Of a stretch of DNA of 38,444 nucleotides, positions 3,001 through 9,515 are shown piece by piece (positions within the stretch are counted from its first letter, which is position 1; each line of letters begins with the position of its first letter). The translations under genes and the position numbers were made by a program. The DNA is from a bacterium (GTDB lineage Bacteria; Hydrothermota; Tepidihabitantia; B3-TA06). The notes beneath the pieces are model-generated. The model was not told the origin of the DNA, did no database searches, and saw only the letters and a program-made list of their open reading frames with translations. Location: positions 1 through 38,444 of the forward strand of contig JAAYVC010000119.1 in assembly GCA_012517375.1 (NCBI GenBank), in the 5' to 3' direction.

Positions 3001-4824
3001 GCTTGAAAATGCCACATTCCGGAACATTAAGCTTGATCCGAGTTTTATCCCTTTAAGAGGCTCGCTCTGCGCCCTAAGGCCGAGAATAGCCCTGTTATTT
3101 AGAGAAAAGACCTCATCTCTTTCGAAAGTGATGTCTATCTTGTCGCCGATTTTAATGGGTGTCTTAAAGGTCAAGGCGCCCGAGTTTTCATCGAAAGTAT
3201 ATTCGGATTTATCTACCTCATTGCCGTTCTTTTTTACCTTTATGCTCTCCTTTTTGACCAAGAGTCCTAGATCGAAACTGGTTATATTAGATTTGTATTC
3301 GTAAGTAATCTTGAAGCTATTGAAGTTTTTCACTGTAACGCTGTCATAAATCTCTTCGATTTTTCTGCTCCCTAGGGAAGAATCGGCAAAAGGTCTATCT
3401 TTGTTGAAGATTATCATCCACAGCCTTTGCTCGTCTTGTGAAAGGGTGTGGGTTTCACCTTCCTTTTGTGTAAGCCCAAGGATATATGAATAATTAAGAT
3501 TATTGGTATCTTTTGCAACCCAGTTGTTATTCTCATCACGAACTTGTACTGTGACAGTTACTTCCGCTAATGCTTCCTTTACAGGCATTGCGTAATGGTT
3601 CCGCAGCATGTTGTTCCAGCATCTGGATGTTGCGTAGTCATCTGTATTCCTTCCCCAGATCAACATTAAAACAGCCTTTCTCTGTTGTTCGTCTTCCCTG
3701 GAACCTAAAGGACCTGCTGTTTTAGTCGTACACGCCACAGCTAGAATATCATTATCGCCAAGATACGAATTCAGCTCGATAATGGAATTCAGGAGTCCGG
3801 AACCCGCATAGCGCACATAGTATTCGTTTTTATCCAACAAATAAAAGGTGCCGGTTTCCCTGTCAAAGCTTGTATCCGTCGCGATATTTTTGGGGTTAGG
3901 CATTGCCGTCCCATTCCACGAAGGCGAAAGCGCGGATTTATCCGAGGATCTGGTTTTATCCGTGGTATAAAACCAGAAGTCTGAAACAACCGAGTCCCCA
4001 TTCTGAATGAGTGCATTTCTTAATGAATCATTGAAGATATAGAAGAATCTTTTTTTGACGAAATCCTGAGCGAATATCTCGCCACTCTGCAATTGCATCA
4101 TGCCGGTGAAGCTTGAAGCGCCTGACTCGGTTTGCTCTTTAGCCCCCACGGCATACAAGTCAACAGATCCTAACTTGAACTGGCCGTTAACGCCGAACAC
4201 GCCCTGCTGGGAGGGAAATTGTTGTCTTGAAGGAAAATTAAGAGCAATGTCGCCCGCATCAACCTTCTTTACAATCTCATCCTCGTCTCCTGTGTAGCCG
4301 ATTCTGACCTTGTTGCTGTTCAAAAAATCACTGCTCGCCGTATTGTGATCGATAACGACCTCTGTTTTCCGGGCAATTGTACCTTTTACCGATACATTTA
4401 TATCCTGCTTGAACTCCAAAGAGGTTGCTTCATTGGGATCATTACGTGCTTTATCGTCCCACACCTTCCAGGAAGGTCCAATGCTAATTTTGTCCTGTCC
4501 GCTGATACGGATATCGGTTTTCTCCTTGCCTATGGGGATATTGATGTCGGGTATGATTCCCGAAACGCTCGACTCCTCGGTTTGCGGGTATTTCTGCCTC
4601 ATGTTTTCTTTTGTCTTCTCGATATAGAGATCCCGGCCAGCAGAGGCAAGATAATCGCTCAATGTTTTTACACTGTCGACTCCCATAAACAAGGAATCGA
4701 GCCATTTTTCGTAATATACAAGTCCCGCATCATAATCGACCCTGGTCTTAATCGAAAACCCCAGCTCAGCAGCCGATCCTTCCTGCGTCTGCGATAAAAG
4801 CATAAAAGCTAAAAACAAACTCAT
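1..4824 (-). CDS. sprA: SprA-like T9SS translocon protein, N-terminal 1608 residues (partial)
   Basis: I translated the minus strand by hand. A single frame starts with ATG at 4824 and stayed open in every stretch I read (4824-3700, 3060-2400 and onward to base 1), so the gene runs off the left edge with at least 1608 codons. Bacteroidota SprA, the outer-membrane barrel of the type IX secretion translocon, is about 2400 residues long. Recognisable SprA-like stretches include AVWVEDFEQG, RLRVYVHNNQYNPRFYIRMG and GEIWLDDIRLDEPFKDIG, in a Ser/Asn/Asp-rich beta-strand background. The N-terminus MSLFLAFMLLSQ looks like a short signal peptide. The ATG overlaps the dxs stop (ATGA), so the gene is translationally coupled to the isoprenoid genes. 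SprA is known to conduct folded T9SS cargo across the outer membrane. That role here is inferred from homology and from the cargo-type C-terminus at the right edge. Confidence 0.88.
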   Translation of the reverse strand, partial: MSLFLAFMLLSQTQEGSAAELGFSIKTRVDYDAGLVYYEKWLDSLFMGVDSVKTLSDYLASAGRDLYIEKTKENMRQKYPQTEESSVSGIIPDINIPIGKEKTDIRISGQDKISIGPSWKVWDDKARNDPNEATSLEFKQDINVSVKGTIARKTEVVIDHNTASSDFLNSNKVRIGYTGDEDEIVKKVDAGDIALNFPSRQQFPSQQGVFGVNGQFKLGSVDLYAVGAKEQTESGASSFTGMMQLQSGEIFAQDFVKKRFFYIFNDSLRNALIQNGDSVVSDFWFYTTDKTRSSDKSALSPSWNGTAMPNPKNIATDTSFDRETGTFYLLDKNEYYVRYAGSGLLNSIIELNSYLGDNDILAVACTTKTAGPLGSREDEQQRKAVLMLIWGRNTDDYATSRCWNNMLRNHYAMPVKEALAEVTVTVQVRDENNNWVAKDTNNLNYSYILGLTQKEGETHTLSQDEQRLWMIIFNKDRPFADSSLGSRKIEEIYDSVTVKNFNSFKITYEYKSNITSFDLGLLVKKESIKVKKNGNEVDKSEYTFDENSGALTFKTPIKIGDKIDITFERDEVFSLNNRAILGLRAQSEPLKGIKLGSSLMFRNVAFSSDSKPILGYTPFSNTIAELDASMERELGFLTRLVDKLPLVATEAKSNFNLLINSALSIPNPNTHKSSAVWVEDFEQGTLESFSVPLGNEYWHPTSIPLRKTIVADSTIDTVMDTMNYSRNLPGWKTSEPFDADKDIFGKESSKLKSEYSDRTLDLTLAPESETRWTGLLGAAFEYNTFDISQSQFLEIIMKPQANQEGVIHFDYGTKIDEDELRLNAHKQIVGLGKFDTEDSTLKYEHYEPYNVGLDRVMGADTANVAGDDGNDDYDKDTNPNGTEGNSRMDSEDLRRDGFDRLNNYYELTVDFDNDTFFDKFVDTLGENGWIKISIPLGDTSFLKKFGTPSVNQIGMFRIWFEGMSGSNALRFYAWKFVGSKWKNNEVVAVDSSFVDTLTEKVFIDLIGSKDKEYKPPFKLGIKSTGEREDENSLRIRYENVSPNHAAKVTRIDERPQDFRAYQRLRVYVHNNQYNPRFYIRMGTDSLAYYEFRERIANGVLPPESQDGLWREFTLDFARFVELKDSLLADTSRRVFYSQDSTMLVKGRPTFASVAYMEVGVINDNQPAATTGEIWLDDIRLDEPFKDIGSTVAISSKLNFADLASLVGSFSVGDGKFVGINISSAPGARQTGAYKSFNVSGALNLEKFGLEKLDFKLPLTASITDNNSLPRFSGEITDKILTTEEQELRKQHSNVKNLGFSLSHNQSKSRLLQYTLDAVRASADYNLSSSLSSAGLSTDTSFSQSYSLRYNSSPDLFFKIGEEKINYFPNALSFSSSLIRTDQNRLSRTVFRSDSAYVWNDTLFNQNAAITFNAGTSYSPVKYLPLSVDISETRAINASGAKNPNLKLDTLFDSKYFFVRDLRLSAGLSNVSFNSFGRPSVTVNSNFKEDHSQGVLNRNLDDSGKVLYPNDRNLTNSGSLNLAWSGFDLRGLFNGMKANAQKRREEKAAKQAESDSLGTVIGVDDTLKIDSIPSDTIVKESAKSPEERMLETFGAVANIFSPINVSANF

Positions 4825-6689
4825 CTCTTACCCCGCATTCTTTTAATAGCTTCCAGAATTTTCACGGAAGTAAATCCAACATCCTCGAAAAGCTTCTCAA
4901 CAGGGCCATGCTCAATAAAATAATCCGGCAGACCTATTCTTTCCAGACGAACTTGGATTTTTTTATCTTCAAGCCATTCAGCAACAGCCGCGCCGAATCC
5001 GCCAATAAGGGCATTTTCCTCCACCGTGATTATTCCGTGATGGGTGCGCGCTATACTTAGAAGGAGCCTTTCATCAAGAGGTTTGACGAACCTTGCATTT
5101 ATTATAGTAGGATTGATTTTCGCTGAAGATTTTAAGGTCTTTTCTGCAAGTTCTACCCCTCTGCCTGCAGCCAGTATCGCCACCCCCTTTCCCCTTCGAA
5201 GAATTTCCCATGCGCCAACGGGGATTTTCTTCAATTCCTTGAAGGACTCTAACCCATTCACAGCCGAACGAGGATAGCGAATGGCAAAAGGCCCTTTCTC
5301 GTATTCTATTGCCGTGTACAGCAGGTTTCGAAGTTCGTGTTCGTCTTTCGGAGCAGCGACAACCATGTTGGGAATCATTCTGAGGTATGAAAGATCGAAG
5401 ACGCCGTGATGGGTCGGTCCGTCCGCTCCGACAAGGCCAGCCCTGTCAATTGCAAATACAACAGGAAGGTTCTGAAGCGCGACATCGTGAATGATCTGAT
5501 CAAAAGCGCGCTGAAGGAATGTCGAATACACTGCAAAAACGGGTCTCAATCCCTTAAGGGCTAAGCCTGCTGCAAATGTAACGCAATGCTCTTCAGTTAT
5601 TCCGAAGTCGTAGAATCTAGCGGGGAATGAAGCCCTGTACAAATCGAGGCCGGTTCCAAGAGTCATTCCTGCCGTTATAGCAACTATACGTTCGTCCTTC
5701 TCAGCCATCTCGGCAAGTGTACAACCTGCAATCTCGGAATAGGTTTTTGTTTTGCTGGAGTTAACCTTACAGGTCTTTAAGTCATAAGGGCCAACGCCAT
5801 GAAAGAGTTCAGGATTGTCAATGGCGCCTTTGAAACCGCGACCTTTCTGTGTTGCGACGTGCACAAGAACCGGTCCCTGAATCTCCTTAAGCCTTTGCAA
5901 GTAAAAAATGAGATCTTTAAGACTATGTCCCTCCAGAGGACCGAAGTAATGGAAACCGAGCGTCTCGAAAAAAGCGCCAGGAGTGAGTATCCCTTTAATT
6001 CCCCGTTCGATTCTTCGTGCCCAACCCCTGAGATATTCGCCTTTGGTTCTGAAAAAACGGCCTATGAAATTCCAAACTCTCGCTCTCAATCTTTGATAAA
6101 ACCTTGTTGAGGTGATTCTGTTCAGGTATGCCGAAAGCGCGCCTGTATTACGCGCTATCGACATGGCATTGTCGTTAAGTATAACAACTATATTCGTCTG
6201 AGAGGTCCCTAGGTTGTTAAGCGCCTCAAAAGCCATCCCGGAGATTATAGAACCGTCGCCGATTACGGCGACGACTTTATAATCGCTGTTTTGTATGTCT
6301 CTGGCCTTGGCTAGTCCAAATGCCGCCGAAAGAGACGTACCTGCATGGCCGGTATCAAAGACATCGTATACGCTCTCCTGTCTTTTAGGAAACCCGCTTA
6401 TACCCTTATATTGACGCAGAGTATCGAAACGATTGTTCCTGCCCGTCAAGAGCTTGTGCGTGTAGCATTGGTGACCTACATCCCATATTATCTTATCATC
6501 AGGCGCATTAAAAACGTAATGGATGGCAAGGGTTAATTCTACAGCTCCAAGGTTAGGAGCTACATGTCCTCCATTCCGGCTTGTTACTTCAAGTATTCTA
6601 TCCCTTATCTCTCCGGCAAGCGCGTTCAATTCATCTATAGTCAATCCCTTGATATCGAACGGAGAATTTATTTTATCAAGAATCTTCAT
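4821..6689 (-). CDS. dxs: 1-deoxy-D-xylulose-5-phosphate synthase
   Basis: This is the cytosolic, thiamine-diphosphate-dependent enzyme that condenses pyruvate and glyceraldehyde 3-phosphate in the first step of the MEP isoprenoid pathway. It has 622 residues, normal for the family. Visible motifs are VGHQCYTHKLLTGR (about residue 71), the TPP-binding GDGS (about 144) followed by LNDNAMSI (about 171), the catalytic-Glu region GITEEHCVTFAAGLALKG, and DRAGLVGADGPTHHGVFD in the pyrimidine domain. All three transketolase-like domains are present. The ATG overlaps the ispA stop by four bases, and the stop overlaps the sprA-like start in the same way. The cofactor links it functionally to thiC and thiL elsewhere in the window. 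Confidence 0.97.
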   Translation of the reverse strand: MKILDKINSPFDIKGLTIDELNALAGEIRDRILEVTSRNGGHVAPNLGAVELTLAIHYVFNAPDDKIIWDVGHQCYTHKLLTGRNNRFDTLRQYKGISGFPKRQESVYDVFDTGHAGTSLSAAFGLAKARDIQNSDYKVVAVIGDGSIISGMAFEALNNLGTSQTNIVVILNDNAMSIARNTGALSAYLNRITSTRFYQRLRARVWNFIGRFFRTKGEYLRGWARRIERGIKGILTPGAFFETLGFHYFGPLEGHSLKDLIFYLQRLKEIQGPVLVHVATQKGRGFKGAIDNPELFHGVGPYDLKTCKVNSSKTKTYSEIAGCTLAEMAEKDERIVAITAGMTLGTGLDLYRASFPARFYDFGITEEHCVTFAAGLALKGLRPVFAVYSTFLQRAFDQIIHDVALQNLPVVFAIDRAGLVGADGPTHHGVFDLSYLRMIPNMVVAAPKDEHELRNLLYTAIEYEKGPFAIRYPRSAVNGLESFKELKKIPVGAWEILRRGKGVAILAAGRGVELAEKTLKSSAKINPTIINARFVKPLDERLLLSIARTHHGIITVEENALIGGFGAAVAEWLEDKKIQVRLERIGLPDYFIEHGPVEKLFEDVGFTSVKILEAIKRMRGKR

Positions 6690-7561
6690 TTATTCCTCAT
6701 CACCAAATGATCTGTAAACAGCGAAAGCGTATTCCATTTTTCCCCCAGATTCGAGAATATTCTTTTTGCACGTCTGGCATAACCTTTGGCCATTCTTTCG
6801 GAATATTCAAGACCGTATACAGAAGGGTACGTAAGCTTATTGTCTTCTGAATCCTTGCCGGGCGTTTTGCCCAAATCCTTTAATGAACTTCTAACGTCGA
6901 GAATGTCATCCATAATCTGAAAACCCATACCGGCAAGAACCCCAGCTCGATGGAGTTCCGAAAGCGTGGCTTCTTCGGCACGCCCGAGAATCGCTCCAAT
7001 GCGTATTGAGAAAGAGATAAATAAGGCCGTCTTCCGCATATGAATATGACGCAGGAATTTTGCATTCGCTTCTCCCCCGTAAAGGTCGTCCGCTTGCCCA
7101 AGGGTAACACCAGAAGAACCGAGTATCTCAGTGAATTCTTTAAGCGCTCTAACTACATACTTACACGGAGCCCCTGAATGACAGACGAGTCCTAATCCAT
7201 CTATCATCAGACCGTCACCTGCAAGAATAGCCATGCCCTCGCCGAACTTCTTATGGTTAGACAGCTTGCCTCTGCGGTAGTCATCATTATCCATAGCAGG
7301 AAGATCGTCGTGAATCAAGGTAAACGTGTGCACGTACTCAAGAGCGCATGCAGCAGGCATGATTTCTTCGTAAGCCAGGCCTCCTGCCGCTTCATAAGCC
7401 AGTATTGCAAGTATGGGGCGCAGTCTCTTGCCGCCTGCAAGAAGACTGTATCGCATGGCTTCGGTCAAAAAACTATTTTCTTGTGGTAATTGGGGTAAAT
7501 AGTCTGGTAAAGCCGCCTCAATGAGTCGACGTTTTTCATCAATCAAAGCGACTAAATCCAT
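6686..7561 (-). CDS. ispA: Polyprenyl (farnesyl/geranylgeranyl) diphosphate synthase
   Basis: This is a trans-isoprenyl diphosphate synthase that elongates allylic diphosphates with isopentenyl diphosphate; the product length cannot be read reliably. It has 291 residues. GGKRLRP binds the substrate diphosphate. The first aspartate-rich motif is in LIHDDLPAMDNDDYRRG (about residue 84), with the two-residue insertion typical of bacterial FPP synthases (DDLPAMD). The second is GFQIMDDILDV. KLTYPSVYGLE near the C-terminus is also typical. The start is ATG with an AAGGAG/GAGAGG-type ribosome site upstream. The gene lies 61 bases after folD and overlaps dxs by four bases, so one transcript supplies several isoprenoid steps. 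Confidence 0.93.
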   Translation of the reverse strand: MDLVALIDEKRRLIEAALPDYLPQLPQENSFLTEAMRYSLLAGGKRLRPILAILAYEAAGGLAYEEIMPAACALEYVHTFTLIHDDLPAMDNDDYRRGKLSNHKKFGEGMAILAGDGLMIDGLGLVCHSGAPCKYVVRALKEFTEILGSSGVTLGQADDLYGGEANAKFLRHIHMRKTALFISFSIRIGAILGRAEEATLSELHRAGVLAGMGFQIMDDILDVRSSLKDLGKTPGKDSEDNKLTYPSVYGLEYSERMAKGYARRAKRIFSNLGEKWNTLSLFTDHLVMRNK

Positions 7562-7622: not shown

Positions 7623-8489
7623 CTATAAGACTCTCCTTTCCGCCGCTTGCACGACATTCGACAGCAGCATCGCAACTGTCATTGGCCCGACACCGCCGGG
7701 CACAGGCGTTATCGCGTAAACTTTATCTGAAATCAGCTCAAAGTCAACGTCTCCAACTATCTTCCAGCCCGAGGCGGTCTCCTCGGCGTTGATGCCTGCA
7801 TCAATTACGACTTGGTTTTCGTGAACAAGATTCAAATCCACAAATCGAGCCTTGCCTATTGCGGCGACAAGGATATCGGCTTTTTTGGTGTATTGAGCCA
7901 AATCTCCGGAGCGTGAATGACAAACAGTAACCGTGGCATCGCAACCTTTGCTCATAAGAATCTGCGCCAGGGGCCAGCCCACTGCCTTGCCCCGGCCTGC
8001 GATTACTACGTGTTTACCTGCAAAAGGTATTTCGTATGCCTTGAGGAGTTCGGTTATTCCAGCTGGTGTTGCCGGAAGAAACGATGATTTGCCGAAAGCA
8101 AGGCGTCCGCGATTAGATGGGTTAAGGCAGTCAACATCCTTCGTAAGCTCTATTGCGCCCAAGATGCGCTCCTCATCAACGCCCTTTGGAAGGGGCAAGG
8201 TCACGATTATGGCGTGGACGGTATCGTCTTCATTGAGATTGAAAAGAGTGTCCAGAATCTCCGGTTCCTGGACACTGGCGTCTAGATTGATGGTCTTCGG
8301 AACGATGCCGATCCGCTCGCAGGCTTTCTTTTGTGAACGCTGATAGGAGAGCGAAGCTTCATCCGCACCTGCTGATAAAAAAGCAAGCGAAGGATTAATC
8401 TCATGCTCCTCGTAGAGGCTTTTTATTCTTGAAGAAAGAGATTCCTCCCTTTCCCTGGCTACCTTTTTGCCGTCAATAATCATCGCCAC
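7623..8489 (-). CDS. folD: FolD methylene-THF dehydrogenase, cyclohydrolase residues altered
   Basis: FolD normally oxidises 5,10-methylene-THF with NAD(P)+ and hydrolyses the methenyl form to 10-formyl-THF. Length (288 residues) and overall motifs fit: TLPLPKG, KDVDCLNPSNRGRL, the dinucleotide-binding region VIAGRGKAVGWPLAQIL, and VYAITPVPGGVGPMTVAML at the end. Three active-site positions are unusual. The YxxxK catalytic motif reads YQRSQ (Tyr49, Gln53 counting from the GTG). The Gln of QLPLP is Thr97. The Gly of DVDG is Cys121. The Lys and Gln are the pair known to support cyclohydrolase chemistry, so this protein may be dehydrogenase-only. Start is GTG at 8489 or ATG at 8483; a promoter ends six bases before the GTG, so the mRNA is probably leaderless. 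Confidence 0.93.
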   Translation of the reverse strand: MAMIIDGKKVAREREESLSSRIKSLYEEHEINPSLAFLSAGADEASLSYQRSQKKACERIGIVPKTINLDASVQEPEILDTLFNLNEDDTVHAIIVTLPLPKGVDEERILGAIELTKDVDCLNPSNRGRLAFGKSSFLPATPAGITELLKAYEIPFAGKHVVIAGRGKAVGWPLAQILMSKGCDATVTVCHSRSGDLAQYTKKADILVAAIGKARFVDLNLVHENQVVIDAGINAEETASGWKIVGDVDFELISDKVYAITPVPGGVGPMTVAMLLSNVVQAAERRVL

Positions 8490-8495
8490 TAATAA

Positions 8496-8523
8496 ATTCT
8501 AGCGATTATGAGGCTTATGTCAA
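8496..8523 (-). promoter_or_regulatory. folD-ispA-dxs-sprA operon promoter
   Basis: On the minus strand TTGACA (8523-8518), a 16-base spacer and TAGAAT (8501-8496) precede the folD GTG by six bases and its ATG by twelve. No Shine-Dalgarno sequence fits in that space. The TGA stop of the upstream DUF4238 gene lies inside the -35 hexamer. Confidence 0.75.
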
Positions 8524-9515
8524 TGGGGCGTTCCATCGGGCCGACCTAAAGGTCGGCCCCTACGGTTTTGGATCAATTTAATGAGTTCTTCTGCATGACC
8601 TAAATAACCATCATTTTTAAGCCAATAAAAATCTTCATCTGCAGAAAAAATAAAACGGTGTGCGTATACTGCTGCCTCTAAAAAATTAATCACACCAACA
8701 AGTTCCTTGCTTATAGGACTCATAAAATGTTTTTCAAACGATCCGATCAATACAGCCTTTTTCGTTAAAGGAATTGAAACAGCCGTATTAATATGAGCTA
8801 ACCCCGGAGGTTTGTTTGAAGGATTAGGAATTGTCCAATCAACCACTAAAGGATAATCTGAGCATATTAAATGACTTTCTTGGGTTTCGCAAAATGACCA
8901 TTCTCTTTCCCATAGAATTTCAAATAGAGGTTTCAGCCTATCGCTCATTGTCTTTAAGTAGGCTTCTCGTTGTACCTTAATCGTGTATTTGCTTTCATCG
9001 AAAACTACCTCACGCATTTGCTCTTTACTGAAGTCTTTTCCTTCCTCACCCAATGCCCTATTTCTGAAAATTTGCCACCTCTCTTCTGACTGAGTCACTA
9101 CATTTGTTATCGCTCTTATAATTTGTTTGGTCAACTCCTCGTTTTGCTTTTGAGACCACGGCGTTCTGATTTTAAATGCCGCAATGAACTGCATCAAGTA
9201 GGAATACTCGTCGGTATCTTTTGATGGAATCGTTTTGGTCTGTAAAATGCTTTCAATTATTTTGGATGCTTTATTATCCAGTTTTTGAAAAGTCTCTGTC
9301 TCAAGAAAATCTTCGTGTTCGGTTACCCCCTCCCAACGATACAAATCCTTCTCGCAAGCAACATTTTCTGTAGTAGTTGTAAATTTCTTACCCGTATCCA
9401 AGTCAAAAACCCATAACTTATCCTCTTTCTTCCCGGATGGCGTAAACCCTGCTAAATAGAATTGAGGTAAATAATGGTGGCGACGCGCCTGTTTCCTTTT
9501 TCCTTCTTCTGCCAT
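8520..9515 (-). CDS. DUF4238 domain protein
   Basis: Function is not known. The N-terminus (ARRHHYLPQFYLAGF, then KLWVFDLDTGK and ENVACEKDLYRW) is the signature of the DUF4238 family. It has 331 residues with no signal peptide or membrane segment, so it is probably cytoplasmic. The gene is visibly AT-richer than its neighbours, with many AAA, GAA and ATT codons, which fits recent acquisition. A purine-rich ribosome site precedes the ATG. It follows the DUF4249-like lipoprotein gene by 15 bases. Its C-terminal residues RRGRPLGRPDG come from the palindromic repeat at 8537-8564, so the original terminus has been replaced or extended. The stop codon sits in the -35 box of the folD promoter. Confidence 0.85.
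   Translation of the reverse strand: MAEEGKRKQARRHHYLPQFYLAGFTPSGKKEDKLWVFDLDTGKKFTTTTENVACEKDLYRWEGVTEHEDFLETETFQKLDNKASKIIESILQTKTIPSKDTDEYSYLMQFIAAFKIRTPWSQKQNEELTKQIIRAITNVVTQSEERWQIFRNRALGEEGKDFSKEQMREVVFDESKYTIKVQREAYLKTMSDRLKPLFEILWEREWSFCETQESHLICSDYPLVVDWTIPNPSNKPPGLAHINTAVSIPLTKKAVLIGSFEKHFMSPISKELVGVINFLEAAVYAHRFIFSADEDFYWLKNDGYLGHAEELIKLIQNRRGRPLGRPDGTPH
8537..8564. repeat. Palindromic REP-like repeat, copy 1
   Basis: A 28-base palindrome with arms GGGCCGACCT and AGGTCGGCCC around a short centre, flanked by CCTACG. The copy at 23399-23426 is identical except for one central base when read on the other strand. Here it lies inside the 3' end of the DUF4238 gene and encodes most of its last residues. 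Confidence 0.8.

Follow-up and report, generated by a model that had tools for sequence, protein, structure and literature searches.

A FolD without the cyclohydrolase Lys/Gln pair in Hydrothermota, probably a dehydrogenase, and FTCD as its candidate partner

Results

The folD locus and its diagnostic residues

The stretch of DNA analyzed here (the window; 38,444 nucleotides, contig JAAYVC010000119.1 of assembly GCA_012517375.1) comes from a bacterium of the phylum Hydrothermota and carries on its minus strand a folD gene (7623..8489) encoding a methylene-THF dehydrogenase of 288 aa that probably lacks cyclohydrolase activity. The coding sequence extends from 8489 to 7626 with the stop codon at 7623-7625, and its start codon is either the GTG at 8489 or an ATG located two codons downstream. 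Next downstream is an ispA-like polyprenyl synthetase gene (6686..7561, minus strand; Pfam PF00348), followed by dxs (4821..6689, minus strand; Pfam PF13292) as the third gene of a folD-ispA-dxs cluster. A DUF4238 protein is encoded just upstream of folD (8520-9515, minus strand); a relative of it lies near folD in two related loci (L007 and L010), and none was found in the flanking DNA retrieved for L006, L008, and L009.

Matches to Pfam THF_DHG_CYH (107.7 bits, cut-off 32.8) and THF_DHG_CYH_C (198.5 bits, cut-off 27) identify the protein as a member of the FolD family. It is the sole FolD match in its genome, a draft of 125 contigs with an estimated completeness of 96.9%. The AlphaFold model of the protein has a mean pLDDT of 91.8, and its best PDB match is C. 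jejuni FolD (3p2o, TM 0.94).

Alignment with E. coli FolD, where the equivalent motifs are Y-V-A-S-K, VQLPLP, and KDVDG, locates three altered segments on the minus strand. In YQRSQ (8345-8331) the Tyr is kept (Y49; Y50 in E. coli) and the catalytic Lys (K54) is replaced by Gln at residue 53; in TLPLP (8201-8187) the partner Gln (Q98) is replaced by Thr at residue 97; and in DVDC (8138-8127) the substrate-binding Asp is kept (D120; D121 in E. coli) and the Gly that follows it is replaced by Cys. A preliminary description of this DNA had reported a FolD without the cyclohydrolase Lys/Gln pair from these motifs, and all three are present in the minus-strand gene. The human equivalents of the pair are Lys56 and Gln100 (PMC6443876, in excerpt). 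If the Lys of YxxxK together with the Gln of QLPLP is taken as the mark of a bifunctional FolD, the window protein falls outside that class (Q53, T97). Among the 25 listed of the 30 NCBIfam models that match it, all are nevertheless named bifunctional, so routine annotation would describe it in that way; the top score against these bifunctional equivalogs is 286 bits vs a cut-off of 438, a comparison of little weight that was made for the window FolD alone.

E. coli FolD mutants altered at the same two positions keep part of their dehydrogenase activity and lose all or nearly all of their cyclohydrolase activity. According to the portion of PMC5688156 available, K54N has ∼19% dehydrogenase left and undetectable cyclohydrolase, Q98H has ∼8% dehydrogenase and ∼1% cyclohydrolase, and a K54-R55 deletion has undetectable cyclohydrolase. 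These are selected laboratory mutants, whereas the window FolD belongs to a constrained natural family. Modeling of MTHFD2, as excerpted from PMC9173628, assigns the Lys mainly to binding in the dehydrogenase reaction, and its authors left room for the Lys to act catalytically in the cyclohydrolase reaction. Since K54N has no detectable cyclohydrolase, the best reading of the window FolD is the one that the preliminary description had put forward, a dehydrogenase-only enzyme; the residues, their conservation, and the E. coli mutants together make this likely.

Conservation and constraint in the window family

FolD proteins were recovered from the window genome and from five relatives of the same family (f1), and no FolD match was found in two further family genomes (G060 and G061). 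Identity is 64-71% for the five relatives, and Gln, Thr, and Cys occupy the three positions in 6/6 proteins. Values of dN/dS are 0.07-0.14 in the nine of 15 pairs with estimable dS, dS being saturated in the five pairs that include the window and in one other, and they denote purifying selection. The shared residues combined with this selection argue that the changes reflect neither sequence error nor decay. Gln53 is followed by KK in the window and by ER in the five relatives, and E. coli already has RK after K54. The KK is thus part of an ordinary helix stretch rather than a displaced catalytic Lys, and the structural replacement that the preliminary description had named as a counter-explanation fails.

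The folD-ispA-dxs order is common to all five relatives (L006-L010) and to eight K/Q-intact loci of other families. It was found in K/Q-intact loci of f10, f6, and f9 and in the altered families f2 and f7, and ispA, dxs, or both are near folD in f11, f12, f33, and f37; neither gene was found in the stretches fetched, from one genome each, for f4, f5, f16, f22, f23, f25, f26, f28, f30, and f32. Horizontal acquisition of the window FolD was also considered and no sign of it was seen, the gene order being common to K/Q-intact and altered families.

Lys/Gln states across the phylum

FolD matches are present in 133 of the 147 genomes searched, and residue states could be scored in 128 proteins, which come from 126 of these genomes and include four truncated pieces retaining the N-terminal region (L129-L132); the other seven genomes have C-terminal pieces only (G016, G041, G067, G076, G104, G115, and G140). 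The Tyr position is Y in 128/128. The Lys position is K in 76 proteins, I in 35, Q in 10, and L in 7. Both Lys and Gln are kept in 63 proteins, both are lost in 44, Lys alone in 8, and Gln alone in 13, where the assignment at the Gln position is alignment-dependent in families f23 and f26 because their LPLP loop is partly missing. The preliminary description had proposed an alignment with FolD homologs of the same phylum, and this places the loss of Lys in 52/126 assessed genomes and in 6/6 members of the window family. The 35 families divide cleanly into 16 without Lys and 19 with Lys, none being mixed. The comparison outside the phylum consisted of E. coli, L164, L165, and the literature; a WOR-3 FolD and an alphaproteobacterial FolD, the only two relatives obtained from a contig scan, have both residues intact. 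A literature search with folate-enzyme terms only, the phylum name not being used, found no paper on the FolD of this phylum.

A count of independent Lys losses was attempted and abandoned. A quick tree needed five changes, two of them forced by its starred branches, and a tree that groups the window family with the other altered FolDs was 38 log-likelihood units better (p-AU 0.918); given this better tree, we claim no number of losses.

In the FolD homologues L122-L128 (f23) and L116, L117, L119, and L120 (f26), the LPLP loop is missing wholly or in part, and those of f23 also have DIEG or DVEG in place of DVDG. These proteins may be strongly altered dehydrogenases or may act on another substrate.

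One-carbon genes in the window genome

The preliminary description had also suggested looking for fchA or formyl-THF synthetase. The genome encodes a 559-aa fused FTCD, a single polypeptide that joins FTCD_N, FTCD, and FTCD_C domains, and a formate-THF ligase (FTHFS) that was read as one gene split by a contig end. The FTCD C-terminal domain scores 203.6 bits against Pfam FTCD_C, over the cut-off of 24.5, and 179.8 bits against the FchA equivalog NF045657, under the cut-off of 275. A stand-alone FchA was not found in this genome. The suggestion that such a FolD would need a separate cyclohydrolase such as FchA thus fits in substance, with the FchA-like domain residing in a fused FTCD in place of a free-standing enzyme.

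HutH, HutU, PurH, and two formyl-transferase-domain matches are also present. Because PurH and the formyl-transferase domains imply a need for 10-formyl-THF, the other possibility raised at the outset, a pathway that stops at methenyl-THF, is less likely. No match to 5-formyl-THF cycloligase was found in this genome. Bacteria with formiminotransferase-type histidine breakdown are generally without cycloligase, which the transferase can replace (PMC3223725, in excerpt), and the absence here fits that published pattern.

Candidate partner enzymes across 147 genomes

Among the 147 genomes, FTCD_C was matched in 135, FTCD_N in 138, a HutH-family protein in 136, urocanase in 125, PurH in 125, and a formyl-transferase domain in 146; formate-THF ligase was over its cut-off in 104. 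Cycloligase was matched in 19 genomes and had no match in 128. The idea that FTCD_C tracks Lys loss statistically was rejected, the domain being near-universal on both sides (47/52 Lys-lacking vs 68/74 Lys-keeping genomes; Fisher p 0.76, no association).

Formate-THF ligase is rarer where Lys is lost (26/52 vs 63/74). In genomes at least 90% complete the counts are 21/36 vs 47/56 (Fisher p 0.008, uncorrected for kinship). Owing to the relatedness of the genomes, none of these counts represent independent observations. Were formate the usual substitute, the ligase would be expected to be commoner where Lys is lost, and the opposite is observed. Fourteen of the 15 Lys-lacking genomes that are at least 90% complete and have no ligase contain both PurH and FTCD_C, a pattern that favors FTCD_C as the cyclohydrolase. 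The exception, G050 (94% complete), has lost Lys and has PurH and no ligase, and no FTCD_C match was found in it. In G126 and G127, FTCD_N and FTCD_C are adjacent genes alongside a Lys-lacking FolD and a formate-THF ligase, and neither HutH nor HutU was matched in either genome. Retention of the FTCD parts without these two enzymes means that they serve a role there other than this histidine route.

Discussion

A proposed division of labour between FolD and FTCD

From the residues, their constraint, and the gene content, we infer with a probability of roughly 0.6 that the window FolD has kept the dehydrogenase and lost the cyclohydrolase, and that the next step is carried out elsewhere, most likely by the C-terminal domain of FTCD. 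Using a nicotinamide cofactor, FolD would interconvert 5,10-methylene-THF and 5,10-methenyl-THF, and it would no longer hydrolyze methenyl-THF to 10-formyl-THF, a conversion that would fall to the FchA-like domain of the fused FTCD. One-carbon units from histidine would enter at methenyl-THF via the same protein, and in this genome formate-THF ligase would supply 10-formyl-THF as well. Taken separately, the proposal that FTCD_C is the main cyclohydrolase stands at about even odds. Counting against it are the lack of association between FTCD_C and Lys loss, the missed FchA equivalog cut-off, the case of G050, the spontaneous hydrolysis of the substrate and the slow growth of E. coli mutants without cyclohydrolase that are reported in the available part of PMC5688156, and the presence of HutH and HutU, which gives FTCD a canonical job in this genome.

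Spontaneous hydrolysis and the presence of HutH and HutU also favor the strongest alternative, in which FolD is dehydrogenase-only, FTCD serves histidine breakdown alone, and 10-formyl-THF arises through formate-THF ligase and spontaneous hydrolysis. The ligase is present in the window genome and half of the Lys-lacking genomes (26/52). We consider this alternative unlikely, since the ligase becomes rarer with Lys loss and was not found in the family members G057, G058, G060, and G062, and since G126 and G127 keep adjacent FTCD parts without HutH or HutU, even though both have the ligase.

It is more doubtful still that FolD remains bifunctional, with Gln53, Thr97, and Cys121 together, or a neighboring Lys, replacing the lost pair. 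The joint fixation of the three residues in six of six proteins of a constrained gene would accord with such a replacement, and the folate-enzyme literature search found no study testing the exact Lys-to-Gln change with these companion residues; yet the E. coli K54N and K54-R55 deletion proteins were without detectable cyclohydrolase in PMC5688156 (excerpt), and the five relatives have no Lys at +1 or +2. That the gene is decayed, mis-assembled, or contaminating, as a draft assembly in 125 contigs might allow, is scarcely credible for a single-copy open frame under purifying selection with an intact predicted fold and five relatives that share its residues and gene order.

Extended to much of the phylum, the proposed division of labour has slightly less than an even chance of being correct. 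The cyclohydrolase step would have passed from FolD to FTCD, which would then have three functions (bringing in histidine-derived one-carbon units, removing 5-formyl-THF as a stand-in for cycloligase, and supplying 10-formyl-THF), leaving FolD free to dispense with Lys and Gln and, in certain families, with the entire LPLP loop.

Relation to known systems

The split proposed between FolD and FTCD is of a known kind, and here it seems to extend through much of one phylum. Clostridium perfringens, in work attributed to Aluri and colleagues in 2016, reportedly has FolD together with FchA and Fhs. Its FolD is regarded as monofunctional. The likeness lies in the combination, within one organism, of a FolD dehydrogenase, a formate-THF ligase, and a separate cyclohydrolase whose Pfam family is the same in both cases; in the window genome, unlike C. 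perfringens, the FchA-like domain has a formiminotransferase as its fusion partner. The comparison concerns the gene set rather than residues; in the window FolD, both Lys and Gln have clearly given way to other residues. A monofunctional FolD beside FchA is thus already known, and the present case is a phylum-scale variant.

Yeast Mtd1 is said to be a monofunctional NAD-dependent dehydrogenase (a finding associated with Barlowe and Appling, 1990), and its Lys and Gln are presumably replaced as well (Thr57 and Tyr98 in PDB 1edz). It belongs to the same sequence family as the window FolD and has a single activity, but is far more diverged (69 bits vs 256-371 for the other 26 matches) and is a eukaryotic enzyme that exists alongside a trifunctional one. 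The available part of PMC11064299 says that fungal MTD1 has cyclohydrolase function only, in conflict with the 1990 title, which names a monofunctional dehydrogenase; no conclusion here draws on that statement.

In 52/126 genomes the residues contradict the bifunctional label, and one-carbon models of these bacteria that follow it would contain one incorrect step. Proteins that retain the full pair, a single member of it, or neither form a natural series in which the contribution of each residue to dehydrogenase and to cyclohydrolase activity can be tested. Should FTCD be the replacement, an enzyme of histidine breakdown would be central to purine synthesis.

Arrangements of related genes in other families

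In 6/8 genomes of family f23 (G037, G038, G039, G040, G042, and G043), PurH and a formyl-transferase domain lie in one ORF of 690-719 aa, apparently a fusion of two purine transformylases. In 16/18 genomes of f10 (G103-G120) the AICARFT_IMPCHas (PurH) domain was matched at two places, roughly 1-60 and 73-311, and PurH is perhaps split there. In G012, G021, G022, G051-G054, G137, and G138, folD directly adjoins the formate-THF ligase gene, as seen in L184.
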